Source: a virus
Direction: 5' to 3' (one strand)
IMG/VR virus record: IMGVR_UViG_3300044627_000060
Coordinates: 1 to 29,564 of that record
DNA length: 29,564 nucleotides
Under the pieces are notes generated by a model. The model saw only the letters and a program-made list of their open reading frames with translations. It searched no databases and was not told the DNA's origin. Of the stretch, positions 1-28,503 are shown piece by piece; position 1 is the first letter of the stretch, and each line of letters starts with the position of its first letter. The position numbers and the translations under genes are program-made.

Positions 1-3000
1 GTAGTGTAAATAGAAGGGGCTTCCATTGGGAGCTCTGTCTTAATTTCTGGAACTACCTCTGGCTCCATCTTAGGTGGTGGAGTGAAGGAAGCTTCAGCTT
101 CTGATACCAGCTTCTCCATCTCAGCATCCACTGGCTTAGGCTCAGACACAGCAGGACTAGCCTTGCTCTTAACAAAAGGCTTCTTAGCAACAGCTTCTTT
201 AACTACTGGTGTAGGAATTATTTCTGCTGGTGCTTCTTTTACTGCAGCCTTAGCTGCTGCATCCTGCATCTCTTTTAACAAAGACATTGAACTCTTCATC
301 ACAGCAGAAGAGCCAGCTTCTTTAGCTATTTGTTTAGCAGCTAAGCCACCAACTTGATAACCAACAACACCACCAGTAGCTTTCTCTGTTGGTTTCTGTA
401 CAGCAACAGCATTTTTCTTCAGATTTTCAGCCAGTTTTAAAGCAACTCCATACTTCTTAAAGTCATCATCGCTTTCAAAAGACTTGCCTATGTTTTGCTT
501 ATAAAAATCTAAAGTTACTCTGCGTAATTTTGGAGGAAGAGCTTCAAATTCTTTCTGCTCAATAGGAGGAACTTTCTCCATGTTATAGAACTTTTGAATT
601 GATTGAGCTTTAGCTACTTTCTTAGCGTTACTTTGAAGGGCTGATAAAGAATTTGTCAATTGAATTGTTTTACCTTCATCGGTAGCATTCTTATACACAT
701 CCATATTAATAATAGGAGTTATAAACTTATCAATGTTGTTAGCCATAAAGCTTCTAGCTTCAGCATCCACTGTCTTATCACCAGTGGTAGAAAAGATTTT
801 ATTAAATGGAATATTTCTAGCTTCAATCTCAGTTTCAATAGCATTCTTTGGTGGCACTAAAGCTAAGCCAGTCATTTGTTTCAATGGTCCTGTGTCACGG
901 AAAGCTGCTTCTGTTCTTGTAGCTGGCTGATACTCAGGCAAAGCTTGCTTCAAGAGTGGGATACCTTTTTGAATGTTCTTGCCAACAGCGGTTAGGAAGG
1001 TTCTATCTTCTTCTGGCTTAGTAACATATATGTCTCTAGGCAAAGCTTCGTTGCTATCAAATGCACTGATGATGTCACTAATCTGATTGAGAGGAACAGT
1101 GGCTCTTCCAAGCCAAGCACCAATTAAATCACCTGCAGACCTAGACACTTTGTTAAGGGCTGTCTGATCTGTCTCTTGTTCTCCCCCACTAGATACCATA
1201 GAAGAAGCAACTTCTTTAATTCTTTCTAATGATTCTGAAGTTGAGCCAACAGCTTTAAAACCAGTAAGGGCTTCAACCAAATCCATAGCTTTAAAGTCTT
1301 CTGGTGTTCCATTACCTATCTTGTAATAGAAGTCAGCCAAAGCAAACGGGACATTCATTGGAAATAGATATTTAATATCTACATTAGTTCCATCATCACT
1401 CTTCATTACATTCCAAGGACTGTCTTGATTTTCTTTTCTGTAAGCATAAGCTGCTAACAAAGTAGCCATACCTGTAGCTTGCTGTGCTATTCTTTCAGAG
1501 CCTTGCAATAGTAGTTGAGAACCCGCTTCATCACCATTCTTTAAAAGTCTAACACCTTCAATGGCTTCAGCAGCACCCTTACCTGCATACCAAGGGTTGT
1601 AATGTTTAGCTGTCCACTGTGTAGCATTAACTAAGAAACGAGCAAAAGGAAATACTGCTGTACTAATTGGTCTTGCTGCTTCTACACCTTTAACAAAGGC
1701 TAAGCCCATTCCTTCAGTAGGTGTCTTACTGAATGTGAATGTAAGGGCATCATCAACACCTTGTCTCAGTACATCAATAGGAATGTTCTTATCTTGTGCA
1801 ATTAGATCAACTAAATTAAGACCAGTCTTTCTGAGGTTGTTATCAATAGAAGCTGAGAAGATAGCTCTTCTTACATAGTTATCCATTATCACAGCAGGTG
1901 TATTTAAGATACGGATAGGGGCTATGAGGTCTGAGTTCTTCATGTCCTCTGCTGTAGCCAACATCTTGCTCATCAGCATTGGATTGTTCTTGAGAGCTTC
2001 TTCTGTTATCTCTCTTGATAGATCGCCCTGTCCTAGATAAAAGTAACCACTTACAGTGTCATCAATAACACCATTAAATCCTTTACCAATATCTCCAGCC
2101 ACAGGAGATCCCCGCATCTTTCCAGCTATCTTTCTTCCTGTGTTAAAGATGAGAGACTCAAGACCTTCCTCTGCTGCACCATAAGTTAAGTTTGTACCAA
2201 CACCAAAGGCATTACGCATAACTGTACTCATGTTGGTTGTCATGGCTGTAATCATGTTTCTATCAGCCTTGTCAATCCATCCTTTGAAGGTCATCATTGG
2301 ACCAGCCACTGGATCTTTCTTACCAAACAAAGCATCAACTGCTTTAGATGCTTCTGGATCTACCTCTTTCATCTTGTTAAGCATTCTGCTAATAACAGAC
2401 TTGCTTTGCAATGTACGAGCAGCATCACTAGTAGATACTCCATACATAGAAGAGAATTTCTTCAAGGCATCTTCATCTAAACCAGCAGCCGAAAGCCTTG
2501 TCATAAAATTAGGCAAGTCAGTACCAGCATCTGCCATAGATTGTTTAATGACATTGTCAGGCAGCTTATCAAAACTATCTAATGTTCTTTGAACAGCTTC
2601 AAATGTTTTCTCTCCTGCTTTAGGAGCATACTCTGGTATCTGTTTCCAAATGGAAGCAGCAATAAGATCGGCTTGCTTATCAATGGAATTCTTAACCTGC
2701 ATCTGTGCAATGCTGGTAGGTGATCCTTGCATGTCTAACAAATCACCACCATCATAGATGTTTGTTGTAGTGACAGACACATTGTCAGCAGCTTCATCAC
2801 CAGTTAATGTGGCTGGTTTCTTAGATGTTGCTAGTTGTTGCTTTCTGGCATCAGTTAAATCTTTAAGTGTTAAGTTGTCACCCTTAAGAAACTTTGTACC
2901 TTTTGTAGCAGCAAGTAAAAGAGGAGCAGTTTCTAACAAACCAAAAGGAGCTTGAATAGCTCCCATTGTTAAGGCTTCTGAAACACTAATACCTTTATCT

Positions 3001-3920
3001 ACCTTAGCTTTTTCTGCTTCTAGTTTAGGAAGTAGTTTGTTTTGATCTTCTTCAGACAACGATGGAAGAATCTTTTCCATCTCTCTCACAGTGGCATCAG
3101 CCACAGCCAGTTCTCTTTTCTGTTTAAAGACATTGGTGGTAGTTCCACTAGCACCTTCAAATAATAATGGTGATGCTGCAGCAGTAGCACCAATCTTAGT
3201 TGTTAATGCCTTCTTAATACCATACTTAGCAGCTTCTTTACCTACAATATTTACAGCCACCTTACCTACACCTAAGCTGGCATATGTAAGGGGATTGGAT
3301 AGCATTAATCCAGCATAGTCTTTCAATGCTGATAAAGGAGCTTGGCCTCTTGGATCTAAGAAGGAAGCTGTGTTCTGAAGAATGTCATAAGCTTCACCTG
3401 CTTTAACAACATCTTCAGGTTTTGAATTGTTAATCCATTCTTGTTCTGCTGTAACACGAATAGGATTGGGATCTTCAGTGACGCTTCTTATGTGACTAAC
3501 AACCCTATCAATATATTGCTGTGGAGTTTCTTTATCTTTAGGAAGACCATTCTTACCAAGACGAGCACCACCATAAGCTGTTAATTTATTTAACAACTCT
3601 GGGTTTGTATACAGATCTTTGTATGCATATTGAGCAGCTTCATCTGCTTTAACTTTAACTGCTCTTTCCTGTAATGCTACAGCTCTTTGCTTAGGAGCAA
3701 TGAAAGCTGGCTTAGATACGTCTGCTGTCTCAGCAGCAGCTATCCTCTCCCTTTGCTGTGGCGTAAGAGGAAGAGCTTCTGGTGTAGTGGTTTGTGTTTG
3801 TTGTGTAGGTGCAGATGGGCGTGGTGGAAGCTTTTGTAAAGCTGCAAACATATCCTCTTGAGACATTCCATCTGGAAACTCTACAGGGCCATATCCTTTT
3901 ACATCAATAATCTGTGCCAT
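1..3920 (-). CDS. Giant internal virion / DNA-ejection-type protein, C-terminal end outside window (>1306 aa)
   Basis: An open frame runs from the ATG at 3918-3920 to the window edge with no stop, over 1306 codons. It begins MAQIIDVKGYGPVEFPDGMS; the GYGxVEFPDGMS segment is a short N-terminal motif I associate with many large phage virion proteins. Residues about 10-130 are charged and helical. Weakly hydrophobic stretches lie near residues 325-345. A long alpha-helical body follows, including PFARFLVNATQW near residue 770. From about 1213 onward the protein is rich in Ala, Lys, Pro and Glu, like a disordered tail. A GYQVGGLAAK motif sits near residue 1190. It starts 3 nt after the stop of the 458-aa gene and ends the chain of presumed ejection proteins. 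Size and position fit a T7 gp16 / P22 ejection-protein role, but no lytic transglycosylase or peptidase signature is evident. Role is inferred from context. Confidence 0.75.
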   Translation of the reverse strand, partial: MAQIIDVKGYGPVEFPDGMSQEDMFAALQKLPPRPSAPTQQTQTTTPEALPLTPQQRERIAAAETADVSKPAFIAPKQRAVALQERAVKVKADEAAQYAYKDLYTNPELLNKLTAYGGARLGKNGLPKDKETPQQYIDRVVSHIRSVTEDPNPIRVTAEQEWINNSKPEDVVKAGEAYDILQNTASFLDPRGQAPLSALKDYAGLMLSNPLTYASLGVGKVAVNIVGKEAAKYGIKKALTTKIGATAAASPLLFEGASGTTTNVFKQKRELAVADATVREMEKILPSLSEEDQNKLLPKLEAEKAKVDKGISVSEALTMGAIQAPFGLLETAPLLLAATKGTKFLKGDNLTLKDLTDARKQQLATSKKPATLTGDEAADNVSVTTTNIYDGGDLLDMQGSPTSIAQMQVKNSIDKQADLIAASIWKQIPEYAPKAGEKTFEAVQRTLDSFDKLPDNVIKQSMADAGTDLPNFMTRLSAAGLDEDALKKFSSMYGVSTSDAARTLQSKSVISRMLNKMKEVDPEASKAVDALFGKKDPVAGPMMTFKGWIDKADRNMITAMTTNMSTVMRNAFGVGTNLTYGAAEEGLESLIFNTGRKIAGKMRGSPVAGDIGKGFNGVIDDTVSGYFYLGQGDLSREITEEALKNNPMLMSKMLATAEDMKNSDLIAPIRILNTPAVIMDNYVRRAIFSASIDNNLRKTGLNLVDLIAQDKNIPIDVLRQGVDDALTFTFSKTPTEGMGLAFVKGVEAARPISTAVFPFARFLVNATQWTAKHYNPWYAGKGAAEAIEGVRLLKNGDEAGSQLLLQGSERIAQQATGMATLLAAYAYRKENQDSPWNVMKSDDGTNVDIKYLFPMNVPFALADFYYKIGNGTPEDFKAMDLVEALTGFKAVGSTSESLERIKEVASSMVSSGGEQETDQTALNKVSRSAGDLIGAWLGRATVPLNQISDIISAFDSNEALPRDIYVTKPEEDRTFLTAVGKNIQKGIPLLKQALPEYQPATRTEAAFRDTGPLKQMTGLALVPPKNAIETEIEARNIPFNKIFSTTGDKTVDAEARSFMANNIDKFITPIINMDVYKNATDEGKTIQLTNSLSALQSNAKKVAKAQSIQKFYNMEKVPPIEQKEFEALPPKLRRVTLDFYKQNIGKSFESDDDFKKYGVALKLAENLKKNAVAVQKPTEKATGGVVGYQVGGLAAKQIAKEAGSSAVMKSSMSLLKEMQDAAAKAAVKEAPAEIIPTPVVKEAVAKKPFVKSKASPAVSEPKPVDAEMEKLVSEAEASFTPPPKMEPEVVPEIKTELPMEAPSIYT

Positions 3921-3923
3921 TAG

Positions 3924-5300
3924 TTATTTCCATGTTTTTGTAGCTGGATCGTAACTAGGCATCCTTGCTTGTGGTGCTAATGCTGGAGCTTCTCTAGGGG
4001 CAGGAGCTGCTGGTGCAGGGGCTGGTCTAGGACCACCTAAACGAGGGCTACTTGCAGCGGGTGCGGGTGTTTCACCTCCACCACCATAGTTAACTTTAGG
4101 ATTAACAGCATTGCCATCTTTATCAAACTGAACACCAGCAGTCATTAATGCATTTTTATGCATCTCAGATTTAGGTTTACCGTTGATAGTCATCTCTTTA
4201 ATCAACACTTCTCTACCAGCAGACTGGCCTTTAGCTGCCTTGTCTGAGGAGGCTAAGTCTTTAATTTCAATGTTAGTTGTACCATCAAAATTAGTTGTTG
4301 TAATAAAGCTACCGGGTGGTAGGTAGTTCTTAAGCGTAGACTCCATTGTTTTAGAAGCAGCAACAATAAGGTTGGCCTGAGAAATCTTATCAGCATCTGT
4401 CTTAACATTCGTAGTAGCAGGATTAGCCACAAGCTTCTGCCATCTTTTAAGTTCAGCTTCCATTTCAGCAGCTTCCTTAGGCTTACCTTCTTTTTGTAGC
4501 TTGATAACTTTGTTAGCATACTCAGCTTCAATTATATTCTGTGTCTTATCTTTCTTTTCGCCAAAATCTTTAATGAATACAATGTGACCTAAGTTAGCAG
4601 CAGCTTTAGCTTGTTCATCTTCTGTACCAGATTGTCTAGCAGTGAGCATAGCAACTTGTGCATCAGACTCAATCTTCTTGAAGTCTGGTTTATCTTTGAG
4701 CTTAGCATAGTCAACTTCAAGAAGTGCTGGGAATGACTTAGAGCCTTTAGCTGCACCAACATTGTACAATTCTTCAGCACTAACACCATACTTAGCAGCA
4801 GCGTTTCTAATCTTAGTTACATTATTACCATACACCAGCTTATTCAAGAAGCCATCTTGTTTGCTAGAAGCAGCTTGTTCAAACTCAGTAGCATCCATCT
4901 TAGCCACTTTGCCATATTGATTAACATAGTCATTGAAGGTCATCCCCTCAGGTATGTTACCTGCTGCTTTAATGAATGACTTAGACAGTCCTTCAAGCTT
5001 CTCAGGATTCTTTCTAAATTCTTCAGCAATAGATTTAGCTGTTGGTAAATCAGAAGCAAGAGCAATAAGCTCCTTCTCATCTAAAGCACCATCAGCAAAT
5101 TTAAAGGAACGAAGAGAACCTACTGTTTCTCTAATCTCTTCCTTCTTCTTATCTGTTTCTTTTCTGTACTCAGCATAGTTGTGGTACATGTTTTTAATAC
5201 TGTCTTTAATCTGAAGAGCATTCTCTTTCTCTCTCTCTTCAATTAATTCTGTAGCACCTTTAGCAGCACCACCAAGAAATGAACTAAGTCTAAATGCCAT
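3924..5300 (-). CDS. Probable internal virion protein, helical, 458 aa
   Basis: The protein starts MAFRLSSFLGGAAKGATEL, a short Gly/Ala-rich amphipathic N-terminus, followed by a strongly charged helical segment (residues 20-60, many K/E/R) that could form a coiled coil. Residues about 60-390 are predominantly helical by composition. The last 60 residues are Pro/Ala-rich and start after a GGGG run, so they are probably disordered. No enzyme motif is visible. The start ATG shares one base with the stop of the upstream 156-aa gene (TAATG), indicating translational coupling. It sits between the 156-aa protein and the giant left-edge protein. By analogy with the gp14/15/16 block of T7-like phages I infer a virion-internal or ejection protein. 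Sequence alone does not prove this. Confidence 0.7.
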   Translation of the reverse strand: MAFRLSSFLGGAAKGATELIEEREKENALQIKDSIKNMYHNYAEYRKETDKKKEEIRETVGSLRSFKFADGALDEKELIALASDLPTAKSIAEEFRKNPEKLEGLSKSFIKAAGNIPEGMTFNDYVNQYGKVAKMDATEFEQAASSKQDGFLNKLVYGNNVTKIRNAAAKYGVSAEELYNVGAAKGSKSFPALLEVDYAKLKDKPDFKKIESDAQVAMLTARQSGTEDEQAKAAANLGHIVFIKDFGEKKDKTQNIIEAEYANKVIKLQKEGKPKEAAEMEAELKRWQKLVANPATTNVKTDADKISQANLIVAASKTMESTLKNYLPPGSFITTTNFDGTTNIEIKDLASSDKAAKGQSAGREVLIKEMTINGKPKSEMHKNALMTAGVQFDKDGNAVNPKVNYGGGGETPAPAASSPRLGGPRPAPAPAAPAPREAPALAPQARMPSYDPATKTWK

Positions 5301-5975: not shown

Positions 5976-8477
5976 TTATCCAATTAGAACACGGGCAACA
6001 AACGCACCAATGGCTGCTGAGCTATCACCATCTGCTTTAATATTTGCACCTTGAATTGCAGCAGCAGCAGAAATCTCTGAAGCAGCAAGAGTGGTTGCCC
6101 TGTTAGCATCATTCTCAGCAGACTGCCAAGCATGTGTTACAGCATCACGATACATCTGTATCTCATTATTATATTCTGTCAAGGACATCTGCTGTGAGAG
6201 CTGAGCATTCTGTAGATTTATTAAATTAGTAGCTGCTGTGTTAGCTGTAGAAATTTCTCTCTGCCATTGAGCATTAGACTGATCAATCACCAATCGTTGC
6301 TGTGCATTGAATTGTTCTCTTTGATTAGTAACTTCAGCATTAAACTTCTTAACAGAGTTTGCTTGGTCAACTTTAAATTGTTCCATACCATTACTCTGTG
6401 CAGAATTAAACTGACTCACTTGTGAAGACAAGGTAGCAAAGAATTGATTTGTTTGATTTGTGCTGGTAGCATTAAATTGTTTAGCAGCATTATCAGCAGC
6501 AGCATCAGACAAAATAGCCTGTGCTGTAAGCTGTGTCTTAAGAACAGTTGTTTGCTGCTCATAAGACATGTTAGTTAAGTCAATCTGCAAAGCAGCCTGA
6601 GCATTAACAACAGCGGCTTGCTGTCTGTTATTTAAACTAGCTGTCTCAAGGGTAGCTGTCTGTGCAAGCTCAGCCATGAAAGCAGCTTGTCTGCTACTGA
6701 GATTGGCTAAGTCTACAGACTGAGCAAGCCTTGCATTCTCAAGAGCCACCTGTTGTTTAGCATTGAAGTTTAAGTTGGCAATTTCAGAAACACGGGCAGC
6801 ATTAATAACACGGGTCTGAAAGTTCTGATCAAACTCTTGACCTAAGAATGTAGCTCTTTGTTGTGCTGTAAGAACAGCTATCTGTTGTTTGTTAGACAGG
6901 TTCTGTGAAGCAAATTGCTGATATATAGCAGCATCAGCAGAAGCAATTGGTAAAGCTTTCTCCATAGCAGCCTGTACCAAAGCAGCACCCGCCAAGCTAG
7001 AAGCACCTAAGCCCCTAGCAGCCATCTCTGCTGTCACAGCTCTTAATGCACCAGCCGCCCAAGGAGGAGGATTGGTAGCATCAAAGTTGCTAGTTAGTTT
7101 AGCAAGCTGTCCCTGTACAGTCATGTCTTCAGTGACAGTGCCTTGTGCTGCTTCAGCCTTAGCAAGCTCTGTACCCACCTTGGTCATGTCTACGGCAGAT
7201 CCCGCTAATGTCTCACCTGTAAGTAAAGTTCTTTCTGGAACAACTGCCACTTTTTGAGCAGTATCTATCTGTGGAACTTTCTCTCTAGCAGCAGTTAAAG
7301 CAGTAGTCCACAATTCTTCAGCAGCAACTGTAGCATCTGCAGTTAATGTACCAGTTGCAGAAGAAACTTTATCAAGTTCAGTTTTTAAAGGAGTAGCAGC
7401 AGTAGTTGCTGACATTGTAACTGCTGGTGTTGTTGTAGGAACACTTGCTAATGTAGCAGCAGCAGGAGTAGTTCCTGTAATAGTTTCTACAGTTCCAGCT
7501 CTTTCGTCTGTGCCAATCTTTTGAGCTTCAGTAGAACCAATAGTTGCAATTGTTGCTACCTGAGCAGCATCAGCAGCTTGAGGAACACCTGTTGCTGAAT
7601 AAGTTACAGGCGAGCTAGTCTGTGTTGCAGCGGTTCTTGTAGCTATAGCTGCTGCTTGCTCTGCTGGAGATAGGGTTACACCCGGTGCTCTTGTAGTGCC
7701 GGGGATTGTTGTAAGGGGAGCTGTTGTTATTGGTCTAGTTGTTATTGGTGCTGTAGTTATTGGCCTAGTTGTAATAGGTAATGTAGTAGGAGGTACAGTG
7801 GTAACAGGTCTAGTTGTTATGGGTAATGTAGTTCCCGGAACTGTTGTTCGTGGTACAGTTGTAGTTGGTGCTGGTGTAGTTGTTACTGGCGGTGCTGTAG
7901 TGGGTGGTGCTGTTACTGTAGGAGGTTTGTATGCTACACCAGTAGGAGGAGTTCTTCCCTCATTAAAACCATAATTATTATAGTGGAAGGCAGCATAGTC
8001 AGCCGCAGACATGCCATATGTGTTAGCCTCAAATTCATCAGCAACATCTGAATTATTTGCAAAATATTGATTTGCTGGAGCTGTTTCATATCTAGATGAA
8101 ATATCAACAGCAGTAGCTTCATTAGCACCAATAGCCCTAGCAAACTGCTCAGGACTAACACCCTCTTGAAGCATGAGTTCTTTAATCTGAACATCACTTA
8201 ATGCTTGGTTTGCGGGGTTGCTCCACCAAGAAGCTATTTGGTCATCTGTATATTTTGGGGCTTCTGTAGTTACATATCCTCCAGCCGGATAGCCTCTGGG
8301 CTTCATCTTAACCAGCCCACCATTAGCCATACGCTGAGAAAACTTACCAGTGATGGAAGCATACTTAGCTTCTAGCGAAGGAGAAGACGCTAGGAACTCA
8401 TCAAAGCCCTGCATAGGTCCGTCATAGCCAAGCTTTCTAGCTACGACTTCTTTTTGCTGTGATGTAAAATCTTTCAT
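5976..8477 (-). CDS. Large virion protein with Thr/Pro-rich linker and hendecad coiled-coil repeats, 833 aa
   Basis: The protein is modular. Residues 1-75 carry two A-x-G-G motifs (RMANGGLV at 49-56, YPAGGYV at 63-69). Residues about 139-176 match a recurrent DVA-x-x-F.../HYxxYGxxEGR-type module (NNSDVADEF, AFHYNNYGFNEGR) seen in secreted and phage proteins. Residues about 185-269 are a Thr/Pro repeat (TTLPITTRPVTT-like units), probably an extended linker. An Ala/Thr-rich region follows. Residues about 569-660 show 22-24-residue repeats with a Q-Q-A centre. Residues 668-723 have Phe at exactly every eleventh position (668, 679, 690, 701, 712, 723). Hendecads favour right-handed coiled coils. 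It starts inside the upstream stop (ATGA). An ejection/internal virion role, possibly a helical conduit, is inferred; a tail appendage is the alternative. Confidence 0.75.
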   Translation of the reverse strand: MKDFTSQQKEVVARKLGYDGPMQGFDEFLASSPSLEAKYASITGKFSQRMANGGLVKMKPRGYPAGGYVTTEAPKYTDDQIASWWSNPANQALSDVQIKELMLQEGVSPEQFARAIGANEATAVDISSRYETAPANQYFANNSDVADEFEANTYGMSAADYAAFHYNNYGFNEGRTPPTGVAYKPPTVTAPPTTAPPVTTTPAPTTTVPRTTVPGTTLPITTRPVTTVPPTTLPITTRPITTAPITTRPITTAPLTTIPGTTRAPGVTLSPAEQAAAIATRTAATQTSSPVTYSATGVPQAADAAQVATIATIGSTEAQKIGTDERAGTVETITGTTPAAATLASVPTTTPAVTMSATTAATPLKTELDKVSSATGTLTADATVAAEELWTTALTAAREKVPQIDTAQKVAVVPERTLLTGETLAGSAVDMTKVGTELAKAEAAQGTVTEDMTVQGQLAKLTSNFDATNPPPWAAGALRAVTAEMAARGLGASSLAGAALVQAAMEKALPIASADAAIYQQFASQNLSNKQQIAVLTAQQRATFLGQEFDQNFQTRVINAARVSEIANLNFNAKQQVALENARLAQSVDLANLSSRQAAFMAELAQTATLETASLNNRQQAAVVNAQAALQIDLTNMSYEQQTTVLKTQLTAQAILSDAAADNAAKQFNATSTNQTNQFFATLSSQVSQFNSAQSNGMEQFKVDQANSVKKFNAEVTNQREQFNAQQRLVIDQSNAQWQREISTANTAATNLINLQNAQLSQQMSLTEYNNEIQMYRDAVTHAWQSAENDANRATTLAASEISAAAAIQGANIKADGDSSAAIGAFVARVLIG

Positions 8478-12025: not shown

Positions 12026-15000
12026 TTAAAGATTAGCGGCATCCAAACGTGCCTTGAGTGATTCAATGATTGCTTGTTGTTCTTGGATAGCCGCAGTCAA
12101 TGTAGCCACCAAGAATGATGTATCAATGCCTTGGTAATTAGGACTGCCATCAGCATCTACTGCATCTTTTTGACCTGTTACGCATTGAGGCACAACTTCA
12201 GCAAGTTCGTGGGCGATAAAACCCTGCCCGTTTGAGCCATCAACATTCCACTTGTATGTGCAAGGCTTGAGCAATGCTACTTTAGCCAATGCACCTGTCA
12301 TTGGTGCAATGGTGTTCTTCAGGCGGTAGTCAGATGAAGTGTTAAAAGAAGTACTAGTGTTGGCATAACTTATAGAACCAACTATACCTGCATTATTGTA
12401 AAAAGTTAGAGGAAAACTACTATTAGCCGTGTCTGCTCTATTAAATGATATTTCGGCTGCACCTTCAGTAACATTTGGTCTAATAAAAACTCCACCATTA
12501 CCTAATCTGGCAAAACAACCAATGCCAATATAACCACTATTGTCACTAATTAGTCTAGCGTTACCATCTCCATCAGACAGCACGATGTAGTTACCTGCTG
12601 TGCGAATGTCTAAGCCACCTTGGTTGCCACTGTATGAGCCAATGATGGTGTTCTTGGAGCCAGTAGTCATCGCCCTACCACTGCCCGTTCCATAAAAGGA
12701 ATTTCCGCTTCCAGTGGTAACAAGTTCACCACAAGCACCCCAAACTCCAGACCAATCATTTCCAACAAATGTATTTGCAAGACCTGTGGTTACACTGACA
12801 CCAGTGCCATACCCAATACCAATATTTGACGTTCCAGTAGTATTGCTACGAAGTGCGCTTTTTCCTAGTGCAACGTTTCTAGCACCAGTGGTATTGGAGA
12901 GAAGTGCTTCATGTCCTAATGCAACTAAATAATTGCCAGTAGTATTACTGTTCCCCGCCTGATAACCTACAGCCGTGTTGTCTGAGGCTGTGGTACTGTT
13001 TGGTAAAGATTGAAAACCAACCGAAGTATTGTTTGACCCAGTGCTATTTGTAATAAGTGCCTGCAATCCAACCGCAGTATTGCTACCTCCTGTGGTATTT
13101 GTCCCTAACGCTTCTGCACCCAGTGCAGTATTGTAATTTCCTGTGGTGTTAGCATCTAGCGTTGTCCACCCAAGAGCCGTATTTCTGTCCCCCGTTGTAT
13201 TAGCATAAGCCGCCTGATAACCTACGGCAGTGTTGCTATTTGCTGTGGTGTTAGTTGCAAGGGCTTGATAACCTATAGCTATGTTGTAGCTACCACTTGT
13301 GTTTGCCTCCATAGCAGACATACCAATAGAAATGTTTCTAACACCTGTATTGTTGCTGTACAAAGATGTGTAGCCTAACGCAACATTTCGCTCACCAGTG
13401 GTCATGCTATAAGCAGAACGCTCACCAACAACAGTGTTGTATGAGCCTGTGGTTGCTGAATACAACGCTAGATAGCCAAGTGCAGTTTGCCCTGTTCCCG
13501 TTGTATTAGCATACCCCGCATGATAACCAACTGCCGTATTGTTTGATGCTGTAGTGCTGTTGAGGAGTGCTTGAAACCCCATGGCTGTGTTATTGTTACC
13601 TGTGGTGTTGCCCTCAAGTGCTCCCAACCCATTGGCTGTGTTCTGTACGCCTGTGGTGTTGAAGTAGAGTGCGCCATGCCCACTGGCTGTGTTGTAGTTG
13701 CCTGTGGTGTTGGCTTGTAATGCTAATGCACCCAATGCCGTGTTGTTAATGGCTGTGGTGTTGGCTTTAAGTGCCTGATAACCAACAGCGGTGTTAGCAG
13801 ATGCTGTGGTGTTGTTGGAAAGTGCATTAGCACCAACTGCTACGTTGTTTGAACCAGTCGTGTTTAAATAACCAGCGGCAAAACCTGATGCGGCAGACTC
13901 AGAACCAATAAATACGTTGGCATTACCAGTTGTATTGCTGTAACCAGCGTATTTACCAAGAGCCGTGTTGTTATTGGCATTGTTGGTATACAAAGCACCA
14001 TAACCAATAGCCGTAATGTTTGCGCCTGTTGAGTTTGTATATGCAGATTGATACCCAACAGCGGTGTTGGAATTTGCTGTGGTGTTGGCTTGTAAAGATT
14101 GTGAACCAATGGCAGTATTGCTTGAGCCAGTGGTGTTTGTGTACATTGCATTACTTCCAACTGCAAGGTTATCGCTTCCAGTTGTATTGACTCTTAAAGA
14201 AACATCTCCAAAAGCGGCATTTCTTACGCCCGTGGTGTTGGCATTTAATGATGTGTGACCAACAGCAGTGTTTTGCGAACCTGTAGTATTTGCATTTAAA
14301 GACGCATAACCAACGGCAGTTATAAATGCGCCAGTTGTATTATAGTAAGCCGCCCCAGACCCTACCGCAGTGTTGTTGGAGGCTGTTGTATTTGAAGATA
14401 AAGCATCTCCACCAATAGCCACATTGCCTGAGCCTGTGGTGTTTGAAGCAAGCGCAGTGTTGTTACCACCTTGCCCGATAGCTACGTTGTAACTACCAGT
14501 AGTGTTTAGACGAAGTGTGTTTAAACCAACGGCAATGTTTGCCGCACCAGTTGTGTTGCTATACAAAGCCCCATAACCAAAAGCAGTTACGCCACCAGTT
14601 GTATTACTATACCCTGCCTGATAACCAACAGCTACGTTGTTAGCGGCTGTGGTGTTAGAGTAGAGTGCTTGCGAACCCAAACCAGTGTTATATGAACCTG
14701 TAGATGCAATTCCATTTGGCCCAGTGGCATATCCAACATATGTGTTTTCTACGCCCGTGCTTACTTCAAAACCTGTATACATCCCTAAAAATGTGTTTTT
14801 ATTGCCCGTAGTGTTGTTAAACCCCGCCTGATAACCTACGCTTGTATTTCTACCAGTGCCACTATTGCTTGCTTGCAAAGCACTAACACCCACCGCAGTA
14901 TTGGTAGCCAAAGCACCTGCACCAAGACCAACAGTTAAACCTTGAACAACTGCACCACCAGTTAAGGTGGATACACCAGTTACTCCAAGAGTTGTAGATG

Positions 15001-16978
15001 CTGTAAGTGAAGTGAACGCACCAGTAGTAGCTGTAGTAGCACCCACAGTGCCGTTGATGTTAATAGAGGCTGTACCAGTTAAATTTGTTACAGTACCACT
15101 AGAGGGAGTACCCAACTGAGGGGTTGTTAATATTGGGCTTGTAAGAGTTTTGTTTGTCAGGGTTTCAGTGCCTGTCAAAGTAGCAAAGCTACCAGCAGTC
15201 AAAGCTGCCTGAGTCCATGCTGAGCCAGTCCACAAATACAACTCATTGCTTGTGCTGTTCCAATACAATGCACCAACTAAAAGAGTATTGCCATCATTGT
15301 CAACAGAAGGAGCAGAAGCTTTGCTTCCTAAGTAACGATCATCAAAACTGTCATAACTAGCAGCAGCATTTGTAGCTGATGTAGAAGCAGCAGAGGCAGA
15401 GCTAGAAGCATTAGATGCTGATGTAGAAGCATTGCTTGCACTAGTGGCAGCATTAGAAGCAGAGGTGGCTGCAGCAGAAGCTGAAGCAGCAGCAGCAGTG
15501 GCAGAGCCTAAGATGCCATCAACATACAATTTAGTTGTAGCATCAGCATTATCTGTTGGAGTACCCAAGCCTGTAATCTTGGAAGTACCCATCGCAATGG
15601 CTCCAGACATTGTGCCACCTGATAAGTTCAGCTTCAATGCATCGGCAGTGTCTACATAGGTTTTAGTAGCAGCATCTTGATTTGCTGTGGGATTGCCAAG
15701 ACCTGTAATCTTAGAAGTACCCATAGCGATAGCACCACTCATAGTGCCACCAGCAAGATCTAGTTTTAATGCATCTGCTGTATCAACATAAGTTTTAGTA
15801 GCTGCATCTTGTGCAAGAGTTGGATTTCCTAAACCAGTAATTTTACTAGTACCCATTGCAATAGCACCACTCATAGTGCCACCAGCAAGTGCTAGTTTAG
15901 TTGCAATGGAGTTGGTAACTGTGGTGGCAAAGTTGGCATCATCACCTAAAGCAGCAGCAAGTTCATCCAGAGTGTCTAACGCTCCGGGAGCAGCAGCTAC
16001 TAAGTTGCTGATAGATGTATCAACATAAGTTTTAGTGGCAGCATCTTGTGCAAGAGTTGGGTCACCTAGTCCAGTGATCTTGCTAGTACCCATAGCTATG
16101 ACACCAGACATTGTGCCACCAGACAGATTAAGCTTAAGAGCATCTGCTGTGTCAACATAGCCTTTGGTAGCTGCATCGCCAGAGTTTGTAGGAGAAGTTA
16201 AGTTGGTGATGGTGGCAGCAGTGCCAGCATCCATGTTCAAACCACCATTGATGGTGACATCATTGAATGTTGATGTGCCTGTAGAGGCTGTAACATTACC
16301 TGTTAAGTTTCCTGTAACATTACCAACAACAGCACCAGTGTGTGTTCCTGCAGTGTTACCAGTGACAGCACCAGTAAGACTACCAACAAAGCCAGTGGTG
16401 GCTGTAACTGTAGTGCCTGTGATGGCTAAAGCAGAAGAGCCACCAATCACAGCACCATCAATAGTACCTGCATTGATGTCAGCAGTGGCTGCAACTAAAG
16501 AGGTGTTGGCAGTGAGGGCAGTGAATGTACCAGCAGCAGCGGTGCTTGCACCAATCACAGCAGCATCAACTGTTCCACCATTAATGTCAGCAGTGTCAGC
16601 AACTAAGCTGTCAATGTTGGCTGTGCCATCAATGTGTAAGTCTTTAAATTCTAAGGAGCTAGTGCCTAAGTCAATGTCATTATCTGTTACTGGAACAATA
16701 GCACCATCTTGAAAGCGTACCTGCTCAACAGCAGCAGCAGCTACTTCAACAAACACACCATGTCTATTATTACTAGTGTCTGTAGCAATCTTGTTTAATA
16801 AGTCAGCATCTCCAATAACAGGAACAGGATGACCCTCAGCAGCAGTGCCATCATGTCTATGACCAGCAGCAGTAGCAAAAGCATCACGCAGAGCATTAAG
16901 CTCATTGTTAATTGGAGCTGCACGAACTACACCCGTTGGTACAATATCAGCAGCCGACTGTCTTACATAACCTGCCAT
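12026..16978 (-). CDS. Tail fibre / spike with about 44 YadA-head-like repeats and S74 intramolecular chaperone, 1650 aa
   Basis: Residues 1-95 form the virion-proximal head (VPTGVVRAAPINNELNALRD). Residues about 97-260 are a beta-rich stalk beginning DNDIDLGTSSLEFKDLHIDG. Residues about 263-487 hold four full and one degenerate copies of a roughly 41-residue unit (AMGTSKITGLG..., DAATKTYVDTADALKL...). Residues about 490-547 are an Ala/Ser coiled-coil tract. Residues about 688-1455 contain about 44 copies of a 17-residue unit, consensus xGYQALxxNTTGxxNTA, close to the beta-roll repeats of YadA-type adhesin heads. The C-terminus, from SDYRLK at 1549-1554, is a Peptidase_S74 chaperone that trimerises the fibre and normally self-cleaves before the motif's Ser. 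It should bind the host surface. The ATG has a GGGG site 7 nt upstream. Confidence 0.93.
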   Translation of the reverse strand: MAGYVRQSAADIVPTGVVRAAPINNELNALRDAFATAAGHRHDGTAAEGHPVPVIGDADLLNKIATDTSNNRHGVFVEVAAAAVEQVRFQDGAIVPVTDNDIDLGTSSLEFKDLHIDGTANIDSLVADTADINGGTVDAAVIGASTAAAGTFTALTANTSLVAATADINAGTIDGAVIGGSSALAITGTTVTATTGFVGSLTGAVTGNTAGTHTGAVVGNVTGNLTGNVTASTGTSTFNDVTINGGLNMDAGTAATITNLTSPTNSGDAATKGYVDTADALKLNLSGGTMSGVIAMGTSKITGLGDPTLAQDAATKTYVDTSISNLVAAAPGALDTLDELAAALGDDANFATTVTNSIATKLALAGGTMSGAIAMGTSKITGLGNPTLAQDAATKTYVDTADALKLDLAGGTMSGAIAMGTSKITGLGNPTANQDAATKTYVDTADALKLNLSGGTMSGAIAMGTSKITGLGTPTDNADATTKLYVDGILGSATAAAASASAAATSASNAATSASNASTSASNASSSASAASTSATNAAASYDSFDDRYLGSKASAPSVDNDGNTLLVGALYWNSTSNELYLWTGSAWTQAALTAGSFATLTGTETLTNKTLTSPILTTPQLGTPSSGTVTNLTGTASININGTVGATTATTGAFTSLTASTTLGVTGVSTLTGGAVVQGLTVGLGAGALATNTAVGVSALQASNSGTGRNTSVGYQAGFNNTTGNKNTFLGMYTGFEVSTGVENTYVGYATGPNGIASTGSYNTGLGSQALYSNTTAANNVAVGYQAGYSNTTGGVTAFGYGALYSNTTGAANIAVGLNTLRLNTTGSYNVAIGQGGNNTALASNTTGSGNVAIGGDALSSNTTASNNTAVGSGAAYYNTTGAFITAVGYASLNANTTGSQNTAVGHTSLNANTTGVRNAAFGDVSLRVNTTGSDNLAVGSNAMYTNTTGSSNTAIGSQSLQANTTANSNTAVGYQSAYTNSTGANITAIGYGALYTNNANNNTALGKYAGYSNTTGNANVFIGSESAASGFAAGYLNTTGSNNVAVGANALSNNTTASANTAVGYQALKANTTAINNTALGALALQANTTGNYNTASGHGALYFNTTGVQNTANGLGALEGNTTGNNNTAMGFQALLNSTTASNNTAVGYHAGYANTTGTGQTALGYLALYSATTGSYNTVVGERSAYSMTTGERNVALGYTSLYSNNTGVRNISIGMSAMEANTSGSYNIAIGYQALATNTTANSNTAVGYQAAYANTTGDRNTALGWTTLDANTTGNYNTALGAEALGTNTTGGSNTAVGLQALITNSTGSNNTSVGFQSLPNSTTASDNTAVGYQAGNSNTTGNYLVALGHEALLSNTTGARNVALGKSALRSNTTGTSNIGIGYGTGVSVTTGLANTFVGNDWSGVWGACGELVTTGSGNSFYGTGSGRAMTTGSKNTIIGSYSGNQGGLDIRTAGNYIVLSDGDGNARLISDNSGYIGIGCFARLGNGGVFIRPNVTEGAAEISFNRADTANSSFPLTFYNNAGIVGSISYANTSTSFNTSSDYRLKNTIAPMTGALAKVALLKPCTYKWNVDGSNGQGFIAHELAEVVPQCVTGQKDAVDADGSPNYQGIDTSFLVATLTAAIQEQQAIIESLKARLDAANL
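12612..14915 (-). repeat. Tandem 51-bp coding repeats (about 44 units of 17 aa) in tail fibre
   Basis: In the coding strand each unit encodes a G-Y/S-x-A-L/G-x-x-N-T-T-G-x-x-N-T-A/V pattern with a 17-residue period. A few units are longer, for instance with a 3-7-residue insertion near units 4, 9, 20 and 42. Copies differ at synonymous and variable positions, so the array is old or under diversification rather than a recent amplification. Confidence 0.9.
15520..16190 (-). repeat. Tandem roughly 41-residue repeats in tail-fibre stalk
   Basis: Four full units share the phrases GGTMSGAIAMGTSKITGLG and DAATKTYVDTADALKL. A fifth degenerate unit opens the array (TNLTSPTNSGDAATKGYVD). One spacer carries a unique helical insert (APGALDTLDELAAALGDD). 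The repeat type is common in phage fibre stalks. Confidence 0.85.
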
Positions 16979-16989
16979 TTAGTTTCCCC

Positions 16990-18546
16990 TTAGCGTCTGT
17001 CATTCATCGAATAATTCAAGACCAAGCCCTGAATTGTGTGACTAGCATTCTGATCATTAGTCACATATTTGAAAGCAATGGAGAATCCAGAGCCTTCAAT
17101 GTTTGTTTTCTCTACTGGTGATGGATTACCATCGTAAATTGCTGAAGCATCATAGATGGCTTCATTGTAATAAGCAGCAGCACCAGTTGTTAAAATGTTA
17201 TAGTTGGCTGGATTGAAGACATTAACAGAGTCATCAAAGTCATACGACACACCCATCACAATACTAGTCGATCCCTCACTACGCAAGAATGTAGAGATGT
17301 TATAGAAGTTTTTACGGATTGAAGGATCTTGAAAATAGTAGAAAGGTGTTTGGTAAACACTCAGGATTTCTGTACTATTAAAAGAACTTCCTGTCTCTTG
17401 TTTATACACCTTACCAGTAGAGTCCCCATGAATAACAATCTCATCTACACCAACATATCCACTAGAAGCACATGTAGCTGGAAAGCCAAAAAGCTGACTA
17501 TACTCAAAAGACACACCACCTTCGCTGGCCCTAAGACCACCTAACAAACCAAAGGTTCCTTCGGCTGGTAAGAACAATCTAAACTGTGACTTCTTACGAA
17601 GCACTACAGAGCTTAGTGTTTCTGGATCAATAGAACCAGCTACAAGTTCTTGTAAGATTGATGTAATGGTGAATTGAATTTGTTTTGAAATTGTTTCCAA
17701 TTCCACATCACCAATCTTACTTGTTCCAGCCACTGGTCTAAAACCATCAGGACCAAGGAACACTAAACTGCCACCCAGTTCTATCACACTATCTGGAACA
17801 ACACAACCTAAATTTGTTGTCACTTCACCAACCACAAAGTCAGCAATGTTAGTTCCTGTCAAACTCTTAATGGCATTCTTACCAAAGATGTACAACGTAT
17901 CTCTAAACTGTTTAATCTGAACAATTTCAAAACCTACATTGATAACAGCAGCACCATTTGCTGGATTAAAGTTTGTCTCTGCCAAAGGAGAAGAAATATA
18001 TAAGTTGTAAGGATCTGTTGTATCACCAGCTAAGAACAAATGATTCTTAAAGGCAGCAGAATACTTAGGACTATTAGGAGCATTAGCATCTGTAATTTGT
18101 GTATAGGTAGTTCCATCATACACAGCAGCCGGATTGATTCCATCAGTTAATGCAATCTTAGGAGCACCCCAATTAAATCTAGTAAACCTAACCTTCTTAA
18201 CTCCCACCATTGTAACACCTGCTGGAGTTGTAATGGCTGACCAAGTGGAAGAAGAAGCTACCCACTTATAAAAGTAATTTGTACCAGCAGAGGGTTTGCG
18301 ACAAGCAAAGATGCCATCATTTAAACTCTCTGAAACCATAACACCAAGTACACTACCTGTGCCAGTTACAGTTCCATAACTATTAGCATATCCACTAATC
18401 CGTCTATAGCCGCCAGTAATAGCTGGCTCATAATTAATTAGCTGTGTGGCTGACCCTTGATATATCTCACCTTGAGATAGTACATCCCTATTGGTGTTCA
18501 TTCCACCAATACATGTAACCTTAAAGCCACTAATTCTGTCTGCCAT
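16990..18546 (-). CDS. Head-to-tail stopper/hub beta-propeller protein (P22 gp10-like), 518 aa
   Basis: The sequence is beta-rich with repeated blade-like strands (FACRKPSAGTNYFYKW, VKKVRFTRFNWGAPKIALTD, AAFKNHLFLAGDTTDPYNLY, IKQFRDTLYIFGKNAIKSL, LGGSLVFLGPDGFRPV). This is the pattern of the phage stabilisation proteins represented by P22 gp10. The N-terminus (FKVTCIGGMNTNRDVLSQGE) and a beta-sandwich-like C-terminal region fit that family. It would assemble under the adaptor and carry the fibre encoded next. It overlaps the end of the adaptor gene by one base and lies 11 nt before the fibre gene. Length is close to P22 gp10. Assignment rests on fold-like pattern and context. Confidence 0.8.
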   Translation of the reverse strand: MADRISGFKVTCIGGMNTNRDVLSQGEIYQGSATQLINYEPAITGGYRRISGYANSYGTVTGTGSVLGVMVSESLNDGIFACRKPSAGTNYFYKWVASSSTWSAITTPAGVTMVGVKKVRFTRFNWGAPKIALTDGINPAAVYDGTTYTQITDANAPNSPKYSAAFKNHLFLAGDTTDPYNLYISSPLAETNFNPANGAAVINVGFEIVQIKQFRDTLYIFGKNAIKSLTGTNIADFVVGEVTTNLGCVVPDSVIELGGSLVFLGPDGFRPVAGTSKIGDVELETISKQIQFTITSILQELVAGSIDPETLSSVVLRKKSQFRLFLPAEGTFGLLGGLRASEGGVSFEYSQLFGFPATCASSGYVGVDEIVIHGDSTGKVYKQETGSSFNSTEILSVYQTPFYYFQDPSIRKNFYNISTFLRSEGSTSIVMGVSYDFDDSVNVFNPANYNILTTGAAAYYNEAIYDASAIYDGNPSPVEKTNIEGSGFSIAFKYVTNDQNASHTIQGLVLNYSMNDRR

Positions 18547-22150: not shown

Positions 22151-23279
22151 TGCCTCTTTTTTGAGCAAGTGTTGGTTTCTTTGTACGCTTTGCAACAAGG
22201 CCACCTTTAGCCCAACCGGGGGAACCACTTGTTGCAGCACCAGCAGAACCATCATTACCAGTACTGTCACCAGCAGCAGCAGAGGCAGCAGCAGCAGCAT
22301 CAGCAGCGGCAGCAGCAGCATTATTGGCAGAGACAGCAGCAGCATCAGCATCAGCAGCAAGTCCTTCTGCAATAGAAGCATCATCAACACTTAAAGCAGC
22401 AGCGTTAGCTGCTAGTCCTTCAGTCGTGGCTCCTGTATTACCAATACCTGTTGCAGTTGTTTCAGCAATATTGCTAACAGGTGCATTAGGATTTGTAACT
22501 GCTGAAATGGCATTAGCAATGGCTCCAATAGCAATACCAATTGCAGAGTTACCTATGCCAGTGCCAGACACTCCAGTGCTACCTCCCACAGAAGGACCAC
22601 CCCCTACACTAACACCATCACCACCACCACTAGTATCAACTGTCCCTGTAGCTGTAACAACTTCTTTCTTGTCATCAGTCTTCTTAGTCTCTGCAATAAA
22701 TTGACCAGCAGAACCAGCAAACTCATATCCAGCAGGAATGGCAATGGATGGCTTATCGTTGAAGAAAGTGATATACATCACCCTACCTTCTTTATTCTTG
22801 TATGCTCTAACATCTAATGCTGGATTGGTAAGAGATGTTTTAGGAATGTTATATTTATTAAGAAGGTCTACACCGGGTTCAGCAAAACCACCAGCAGCAA
22901 ACTTCTTCTCCCCCATCTGCTCACCTTCAACTTCTTTCATGATGTCATCAATCTCAGAATTAAAGCCTTCTTCATCTTCATGTAGAGCTTCTGGATTTTC
23001 TACCTCTTGAGCATTACCCATCTGACCAATCTCTGCCATGCGAGACAAGCCCTGCTTAGCTTCATCACGAAGCTTCATCAATCTTTCAAGACCAATGTAA
23101 CGAACAACATCAGCAGGAATGACAAACTCACCTTCACTTATTTTTACATCAATGTCATCTCTCACTTCATTCTGCAAAGAACCGGGAGGTACATCATTGC
23201 CTGACACAGGATCTACTGTGCCTCCCTGATCATTCATACCACCCTCAGCAAACAGTCTATCCATATTATTTGTGTACAT
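22134..23279 (-). CDS. Conserved podophage virion-associated protein with Ala-rich tail, 381 aa
   Basis: The N-terminal region includes LFAEGGMNDQGGTVDP and a well-conserved-looking segment (VPPGSLQNEVRDDIDVKISE, FVIPADVVRYIGLERLMKL) that I recall from aquatic podophages and similar phages, always near portal or scaffold. Residues about 195-230 hold a Gly/Val low-complexity stretch, then an Ala/Asp/Ser-rich tract, and the end is basic (WAKGGLVAKRTKKP). Three A-x-G-G motifs are present. I prefer the second ATG (23277-23279), because AAGGA lies 8 nt upstream; the first ATG, three codons earlier, is too close to it. A structural accessory protein is likely; enzyme activity is not suggested. Confidence 0.7.
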   Translation of the reverse strand: MYTNNMDRLFAEGGMNDQGGTVDPVSGNDVPPGSLQNEVRDDIDVKISEGEFVIPADVVRYIGLERLMKLRDEAKQGLSRMAEIGQMGNAQEVENPEALHEDEEGFNSEIDDIMKEVEGEQMGEKKFAAGGFAEPGVDLLNKYNIPKTSLTNPALDVRAYKNKEGRVMYITFFNDKPSIAIPAGYEFAGSAGQFIAETKKTDDKKEVVTATGTVDTSGGGDGVSVGGGPSVGGSTGVSGTGIGNSAIGIAIGAIANAISAVTNPNAPVSNIAETTATGIGNTGATTEGLAANAAALSVDDASIAEGLAADADAAAVSANNAAAAAADAAAAASAAAGDSTGNDGSAGAATSGSPGWAKGGLVAKRTKKPTLAQKRGIASKK

Positions 23280-28297: not shown

Positions 28298-28503
28298 TAT
28301 TTCTTCTTAGCTTTCATTGGTGCTTTAACAGCACCACCCTTAGCCATCTTGCCTTTTCCGTCAGCAGCAAAAGCTGGTACTTTCATTCCACCCTTTTCAA
28401 CCATAGGCATACCACCAGCAGCATAGCCCTTCTTAGCCATACCTCCAGCAGCATATCCTTTTTTAGTCATACCACCAGCAGCCATCATTTTTGCTTTCAT
28501 CAT
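28297..28503 (-). CDS. Short Gly/Lys/Met repeat protein (KKGYAAGGM), 68 aa
   Basis: The protein is almost all low complexity: a decapeptide repeat around GYAAGGM (residues 8-32), then MVEKGGMKVPAFAADGKGK and a lysine-rich end. It carries several A-x-G-G motifs shared with other proteins in the window. It has no membrane segment and little predicted fold. The ATG overlaps the stop of the 224-aa gene and its stop overlaps the next start, so the frame is maintained in an operon. Function is unknown; similar short repeats are common in uncultured aquatic phages, by memory. Confidence 0.65.
   Translation of the reverse strand: MMKAKMMAAGGMTKKGYAAGGMAKKGYAAGGMPMVEKGGMKVPAFAADGKGKMAKGGAVKAPMKAKKK

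Follow-up and report, generated by a model that had tools for sequence, protein, structure and literature searches.

The stretch analysed here (hereafter the window) comprises all 29,564 bases of virus record IMGVR_UViG_3300044627_000060, which consists of one contig. The terminase shares 73.8% identity with its counterparts in Roseobacter phage CRP-1 and Puniceispirillum phage HMO-2011 and, on the strength of this relationship, the virus is assigned to the HMO-2011/Roseobacter-CRP-like phages. The minus strand carries a long open reading frame (ORF) for a tail fibre, in which the following parts were delineated:

12026-16978, minus strand: tail fibre ORF, 1650 aa (matches to PHROG virion structural, tail spike and tail fibre families)
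15197-16978, minus strand: conserved stem, aa 1-594, presumed virion-proximal (DNA identity to the relatives L003 and L005; stem homologues)
15488-16120, minus strand: four collar-fibre-like 44-aa repeats within the stem, aa 287-497 (repeat search, phmmer)
14921-15196, minus strand: linker, aa 595-686, the start of the variable distal cassette (comparison with relatives)
12620-14920, minus strand: 44-unit array of 17-residue layers, aa 687-1453, a predicted left-handed beta-roll (array statistics; the model covers the last turns)
12335-12619, minus strand: distal domain from the array to the cleavage site, aa 1454-1548, which presumably forms the tip of the mature fibre (low-confidence model)
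12026-12334, minus strand: Peptidase_S74 intramolecular chaperone, aa 1549-1650, plus the stop codon (Pfam PF13884; fold match to MyRF ICA, 7dc3)
12332-12334, minus strand: codon of Ser1549, predicted self-cleavage residue (dyad as given in passages of PMC3742443 and PMC4690869)
12317-12319, minus strand: codon of Lys1554, predicted partner of Ser1549 (Ser/Lys spacing)

The assignment of this ORF to a phage tail fibre, already made in the initial annotation of the window, is supported by the PHROG families, by the Pfam match to S74 and by cultured phages with the same layout. The gene upstream of the fibre (16990-18546, 518 aa) matches a PHROG family labelled 'amidase' over nearly its whole length and, more weakly, virion structural and head-closure PHROG families, and has no Pfam family at E 0.01; judged by these profiles, the 'amidase' label appears doubtful. 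In CRP-1, too, the gene directly before the fibre gene is a structural gene of comparable size (512 aa). Elsewhere in the window, two long ORFs, one of 833 aa with a Thr/Pro-rich repeat (5976-8477) and one of 1306 aa that is cut by the record end (3-3920), have no PHROG match at E 0.1, and short tandem repeats are present at 22271-22359 (a CAG-type run) and 28404-28482 (a 30-bp unit in 2.6 copies).

The central part of the fibre had been described as about 44 repeats of 17 residues at 12612-14915, and both the count and the period are confirmed, with boundaries refined to 12620-14920. Within the originally proposed boundaries, residue identity at lag 17 is 0.409, whereas 500 shuffles never exceed 0.162 across lags 5 to 39. 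A unit profile recognizes 41 units at 18 bits or more, and counting a degenerate unit at the start and two units of 16 residues brings the total to 44 over 767 residues, interrupted by insertions of 1, 2, 4, 7 and 7 residues. At the same threshold the profile finds no unit in the 16,541 aa of the other open stretches of at least 60 aa in the window, and a mean of 0.385 (maximum 4) in 200 shuffles of the array residues. Across 3,451 distinct units, position 11 is Gly in essentially all, a result that is partly circular because the profile used to pick the units rewards that Gly, and six positions (5, 6, 12, 13, 16 and 17) have an entropy of 3.1-3.8 bits while the others are more conserved, a contrast likewise inflated by the picking. 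Furthermore, coupling between units is strongest for immediate neighbours: position 15 covaries with position 9 of the next unit with an excess of 0.263 bits, which falls to 0.086 bits two units on. Stronger covariation between neighbouring than between distant units is what is predicted for stacked layers, and this observation is independent of any structural model.

A second and more conserved type of unit has Ala in place of Gly at position 4 and a tighter consensus, NTTASNNTAVGYQALYS. Units of this type tend not to adjoin one another: across 80 dereplicated viral arrays they occur as neighbours 57 times against 157 expected, with a lag-1 correlation of -0.238 (compared with -0.031 +/- 0.020) and an excess at spacings of 2-4 units; in 27 bacterial arrays there are 2 such neighbours against 6.4 expected, albeit in small numbers. 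In the fibre studied here the Ala-type units start at aa 775, 863, 965, 1056, 1073, 1141, 1243 and 1328, of which those at 1056 and 1073 form an adjacent pair, against the general rule. Ala-type units were considered as joints for DNA recombination, an idea that found no support. Third-position identity is 0.353 for Ala-type and 0.336 for other units between arrays, and 0.459 and 0.396, respectively, within arrays; synonymous identity being barely higher, these units appear to be conserved mainly as protein rather than as DNA.

Comparison with 58 stem homologues, six of which are copies of this fibre, separates a conserved stem from an exchangeable distal part. The stem DNA is 90.6% identical to that of L003 and 88.9% identical to that of L005 (L numbers denote the viral loci retrieved in our searches), and in both cases the similarity stops at ORF nucleotides 1783-1786. 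Beyond this point, stems that are 93.6-95.1% identical to the present one carry different cassettes, with 49 array units in L003, 16 in L005 and none in L004; the truncated L006 also contains no array units, and nor does CRP-1, a relative in the stem. Within the stem, aa 299-368 match the tail collar fibre protein gp4 (9d93; phmmer E 6.4e-6), and the first and second copies of the 44-aa collar-type repeat lie 79 aa apart. The number of these stem repeats (44 aa, 132 bp) itself differs among closer relatives, with four here, three in L013-L017, and six in L007 and L120. The comparison thus supports replacement of the distal cassette as one way in which array length changes among relatives.

A different mode of change was put forward in the initial annotation, namely that recombination between tandem 51-bp units can alter fibre length. 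The array would then be a length-variable repeat that grows and shrinks by slippage or unequal exchange. The tandem layout is indeed present, but the likeness of the units as DNA is weak: the 34 directly adjacent unit pairs share on average 0.533 of their bases, exact repeats in the array DNA reach at most 19 bp, and Tandem Repeats Finder picks up just two short stretches of it, with 73-76% match. At fourfold degenerate third positions, all unit pairs taken together agree at 0.344 and adjacent pairs at 0.387; random choice among the codons of Ala, Gly, Thr and Val would give 0.29-0.44. Nor does the array vary where the same gene recurs, since two other virus contigs, from samples that may not be independent, carry the whole 4,953-base fibre gene without a single difference, and the 4,787 bases of it present in a third are identical as well. 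Across six sets of near-identical but non-identical arrays (L107/L118, L153/L155, L097/L098/L121, L162/L164, L111/L119 and L149/L151/L152, with L155 and L119 cut at their ends) no change in units was found. L171 and L174 differ by one counted unit, and a gain is not claimed for them, as their matched units keep a constant offset. The assemblies in the searched collections are presumably mostly short-read, and the negative result carries less weight for fresh duplications, since very recent long repeats would be hidden by such assembly.

In favour of slippage or unequal exchange, one pair of phages, L126 and L127, agrees at 99.2% over some 6.4 kb that extends into the array, and beyond this the homologous units are shifted by whole layers, exactly three and then two: units 13-16 of L127 correspond to units 16-19 of L126, and units 22-27 to units 20-25. 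Addition of layers has also been speculated on for the adhesin BpaC, in a passage of PMC9543794. Units 43-62 of L127 mostly match L154 at 0.82-1.0, and the arrays of L126, L127 and L154 are mosaics in near-identical phages, rearranged in whole-unit blocks. Blocks of about four units at 94-100% identity are also shared between otherwise differing arrays (L102/L147, L108/L157 and L114/L161); some of this block rearrangement could be mimicked by chimeric assembly. In the pair L126/L127, then, a change of length by whole-unit block rearrangement is seen in the aligned sequences. In the lineage of the window, by contrast, the diverged units and the gene found identical, where present, in three other contigs speak against recombination between 51-bp units, and we regard slippage or unequal recombination as a quite improbable account of the array. 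Repeat number, whose comparison was suggested at the outset, is unchanged in the recurring copies of this gene as far as they are present, and differs among relatives through cassette replacement and, in one pair, block rearrangement.

The array is not confined to this virus, fibres of this type being common among aquatic viruses. With 357 aa of the array (aa 1039-1395) as tblastn query, 102 of 50,697 phage records were matched, compared with 311 for the whole fibre. The loci examined further were chosen by similarity, and therefore describe the family rather than phages at large. All of the best 80 of 411 confirmed viral loci obtained with the array query contain an array, with a median of 32 units among the 56 complete ORFs; 15 of the 56 have at least 41 units, including two copies of this fibre and two others that are near-identical to each other. 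Among 80 loci found with the whole protein, 14 carry an array of at least four units. One further relative, L046, has an ORF from base 4448 with an open stretch of 3109 aa, 146 counted units and an S74-like motif. The rod of the present fibre, at 44 layers of 4.8 A, the rise per layer given for BpaC in part of PMC9543794, would measure only about 21 nm and is thus not extreme; together with the frequency of long arrays among complete ORFs, this leaves the earlier impression of a repeat run of unusual length without support. A further 52 loci, with 4-50 units each, lie in bacterial genome assemblies, 28 of them in Bacteroidota by record title. Some of these bacterial proteins, including those on two Hymenobacter plasmids, are annotated as 'tail fiber domain-containing protein', and they may be cellular or belong to prophages. 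Cyanophage P-SS2 ORF073 (1627 aa), which is tabled with structural proteins in a part of PMC2784084, was considered as an example of an array protein in virions and discarded, having no such units. Predicted proteins of giant viruses in BFVD, namely a Tupanvirus S74 protein, a Bodo saltans virus FhaB-like adhesion protein and a Gaeavirus S74 protein, match the model of aa 1243-1650 with E 2e-16 to 9e-13, the matched part being unspecified. Among the open-access papers listed, surveyed mostly by title and the start of the abstract, we did not find NTTG arrays of phage fibres described as YadA-type rolls.

The fold of the layers was approached through profile searches and two AlphaFold models. 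The initial annotation had likened the repeats to the beta-roll of YadA heads, a likeness that is supported at the level of the fold by the better of the two models, but not by the YadA_head sequence profile. Pfam YadA_head (PF05658) matches neither the window at E 10 nor the fibre protein at E 1; among the 61 related array segments it has weak matches to 3 (best E 0.0048). The period of 17 departs from the 14-15 residues per layer of YadA-like head repeats. A PDB search with the array profile yielded only a chance-level match (CA3, E 0.19), and a search of NCBIfam nothing useful. The first model, of an isolated 10-unit stretch with 61 ungapped rows, was weak (pLDDT 61.7), and its best superpositions were with beta-helices of the right-handed kind (Z up to 12.6); YadA was missing from its superposition list, which excludes nothing. 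The second, a monomer of aa 1243-1650 whose array part is the last 211 array residues only, has a mean pLDDT of 77.4, with 80-92 over the first 160 of these residues and about 60-80 over the last 50, and places a strand at positions 8-10 of the unit in each of ten consecutive layers. We prefer the second model because of its higher pLDDT in the array and because it includes the natural C-terminal cap, while the disagreement with the first stands.

The array of the second model superposes best on the adhesin CbpF (Z 17.5, 2.3 A over 172 residues, 20% identity), followed among adhesins by YadA (Z 14.6, 2.5 A over 141 residues), BpaC (14.1, 4.3 A), AtaA (13.0, 2.7 A), BoaA (12.7, 4.9 A) and UspA1 (12.3, 2.4 A), scores to be read with the caution in the VIA notes that for repeats a Z below about 13 says little. 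These heads surfaced only when Foldseek's candidates were realigned with VIA; Foldseek itself placed no adhesin head among the best 50 of its 66 matches for this model. Left-handed hexapeptide helices reach similar values, GlmU with Z 14.5 and LpxD with Z 13.7, about as high as YadA, so that the margin is clear for CbpF and not for YadA alone. The array might then be a three-sided helix of the hexapeptide type (LbH) with a turn of 17 instead of 18 residues, rather than a two-sided adhesin roll, and the nearness of the two periods and the weak matches of Pfam LbH_EIF2B to 17 of the 61 array segments (best E 1.6e-4) would fit such a helix. CbpF, however, lies 3 Z units above GlmU, with a lower rmsd (2.3 versus 2.8 A) and higher identity (20% versus 10%), both models have at most two short strands per turn, and the segment from the window has no LbH or Hexapep family match at E 1. 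Hexapep matches just one of the 61 segments (E 0.35), and the array thus has neither the hexapeptide profile nor the 18 residues per turn of such helices, which we consider improbable here. The left-handed adhesin-type beta-roll is the best-supported prediction for the fold, with a weaker model dissenting.

At the C-terminus, PF13884 matches aa 1549-1600 with E 2.2e-9 and 37.9 bits, above the curated cut-off of 22. The match includes Ser1549 and Lys1554, five residues apart, the spacing of the self-cleavage pair described for endosialidases, T5 pb1 and MYRF in sections of PMC3742443 and PMC4690869, and their equivalents are invariant in 36 of 36 aligned C-termini, rows that were chosen for similarity to this C-terminus. 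The chaperone part of the second model matches MyRF ICA (7dc3) with a Foldseek E of 1.4e-4 and a Z of 9.4 over 95 residues. Of the C-terminal segments lying behind such arrays, 118 in all, 84 have an S74 match at E 0.01 and the other 34 do not, indicating that array and cleavable chaperone usually travel together. By analogy with the S74 family, the fibre would be trimeric, self-cleaving and receptor-binding.

In T5, the binding site has been proposed to lie at the terminal end, unmasked by cleavage of the chaperone (a section of PMC4690869), and a corresponding role of the tip may be envisaged here. The array itself could instead be the receptor-binding face, positions 5, 6, 12, 13, 16 and 17 of each layer forming a long multivalent surface. 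The high entropy of these positions in the profile-picked units agrees with this, and CbpF uses a loop on its roll to bind the receptor, according to a portion of PMC13432900; the T5 precedent and the spread of such arrays over phages with many different hosts and over bacterial genome assemblies point the other way, and we hold direct binding by the array to be possible, if rather unlikely.

Taking these lines of evidence together, we consider it likely that the gene encodes a trimeric HMO-2011-like tail fibre composed of a stem, an exchangeable beta-roll cassette, an S74 chaperone and an exposed tip, in which the array acts mainly as a spacer. The conserved stem would fix the fibre to the virion, and the exchangeable distal cassette would carry a rigid rod, each of the approximately 44 units forming one YadA-head-like layer of a left-handed parallel beta-roll; beyond the rod would come a small distal domain. 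At the C-terminus, the S74 chaperone would drive trimerization and folding and then cut itself off before Ser1549, its removal exposing a host-binding tip. The array would serve chiefly as a rigid spacer and display scaffold, and swapping of cassettes would change host specificity. More tentatively, the 17-residue arrays might constitute a distinct branch of adhesin beta-rolls, present in phages, bacteria and possibly giant viruses, that evolves without slippage by exchange of whole-layer blocks (of about four) between otherwise unrelated fibres, with a grammar of two layer types, such that length and surface pattern are recombined. The proposed reading gives structural meaning to a repeat that in the phage records seen mostly bears no more than the label 'structural protein', 'tail fibre' or 'hypothetical protein', and it tells apart two modes of change in phage fibres, of which distal exchange is supported and stepwise change in repeat number is not in this lineage.

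Among cultured phages, the closest parallels are gp48 of CRP-7, gp48 of HTVC112P and PSSM2_298 of P-SSM2, in which 17-residue units of the same consensus (21, 27 and 22, respectively, compared with 41 by the same count in this fibre) precede an S74-like motif whose Ser and Lys are five residues apart, as in this fibre. With the endosialidase-type chaperones of K1F (3gw6), T5 pb1 (4uw8) and MyRF ICA (7dc3), the fibre shares PF13884, the fold match and the Ser/Lys spacing; unlike in those proteins, the chaperone sits behind a predicted beta-roll, and its cleavage is predicted. The resemblance to the heads of trimeric adhesins lies in the predicted fold, the stacking of layers, the Gly in each layer and the richness in Asn and Thr, as in BpaC (part of PMC9543794); adhesin rolls have 14-15 residues per layer and an invariant layer Gly, according to the same part of that source, and in CbpF 14 strands are packed into 64 A (a portion of PMC13432900). 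The differences are the layer of 17 residues, the lack of a PF05658 match and the S74 chaperone at the C-terminus in place of the YadA anchor of trimeric autotransporter adhesins, Pfam at E 1 finding Peptidase_S74 alone. The type of fibre is thus widespread and its parts are known, the variant being a 17-residue adhesin-type layer in a phage fibre.
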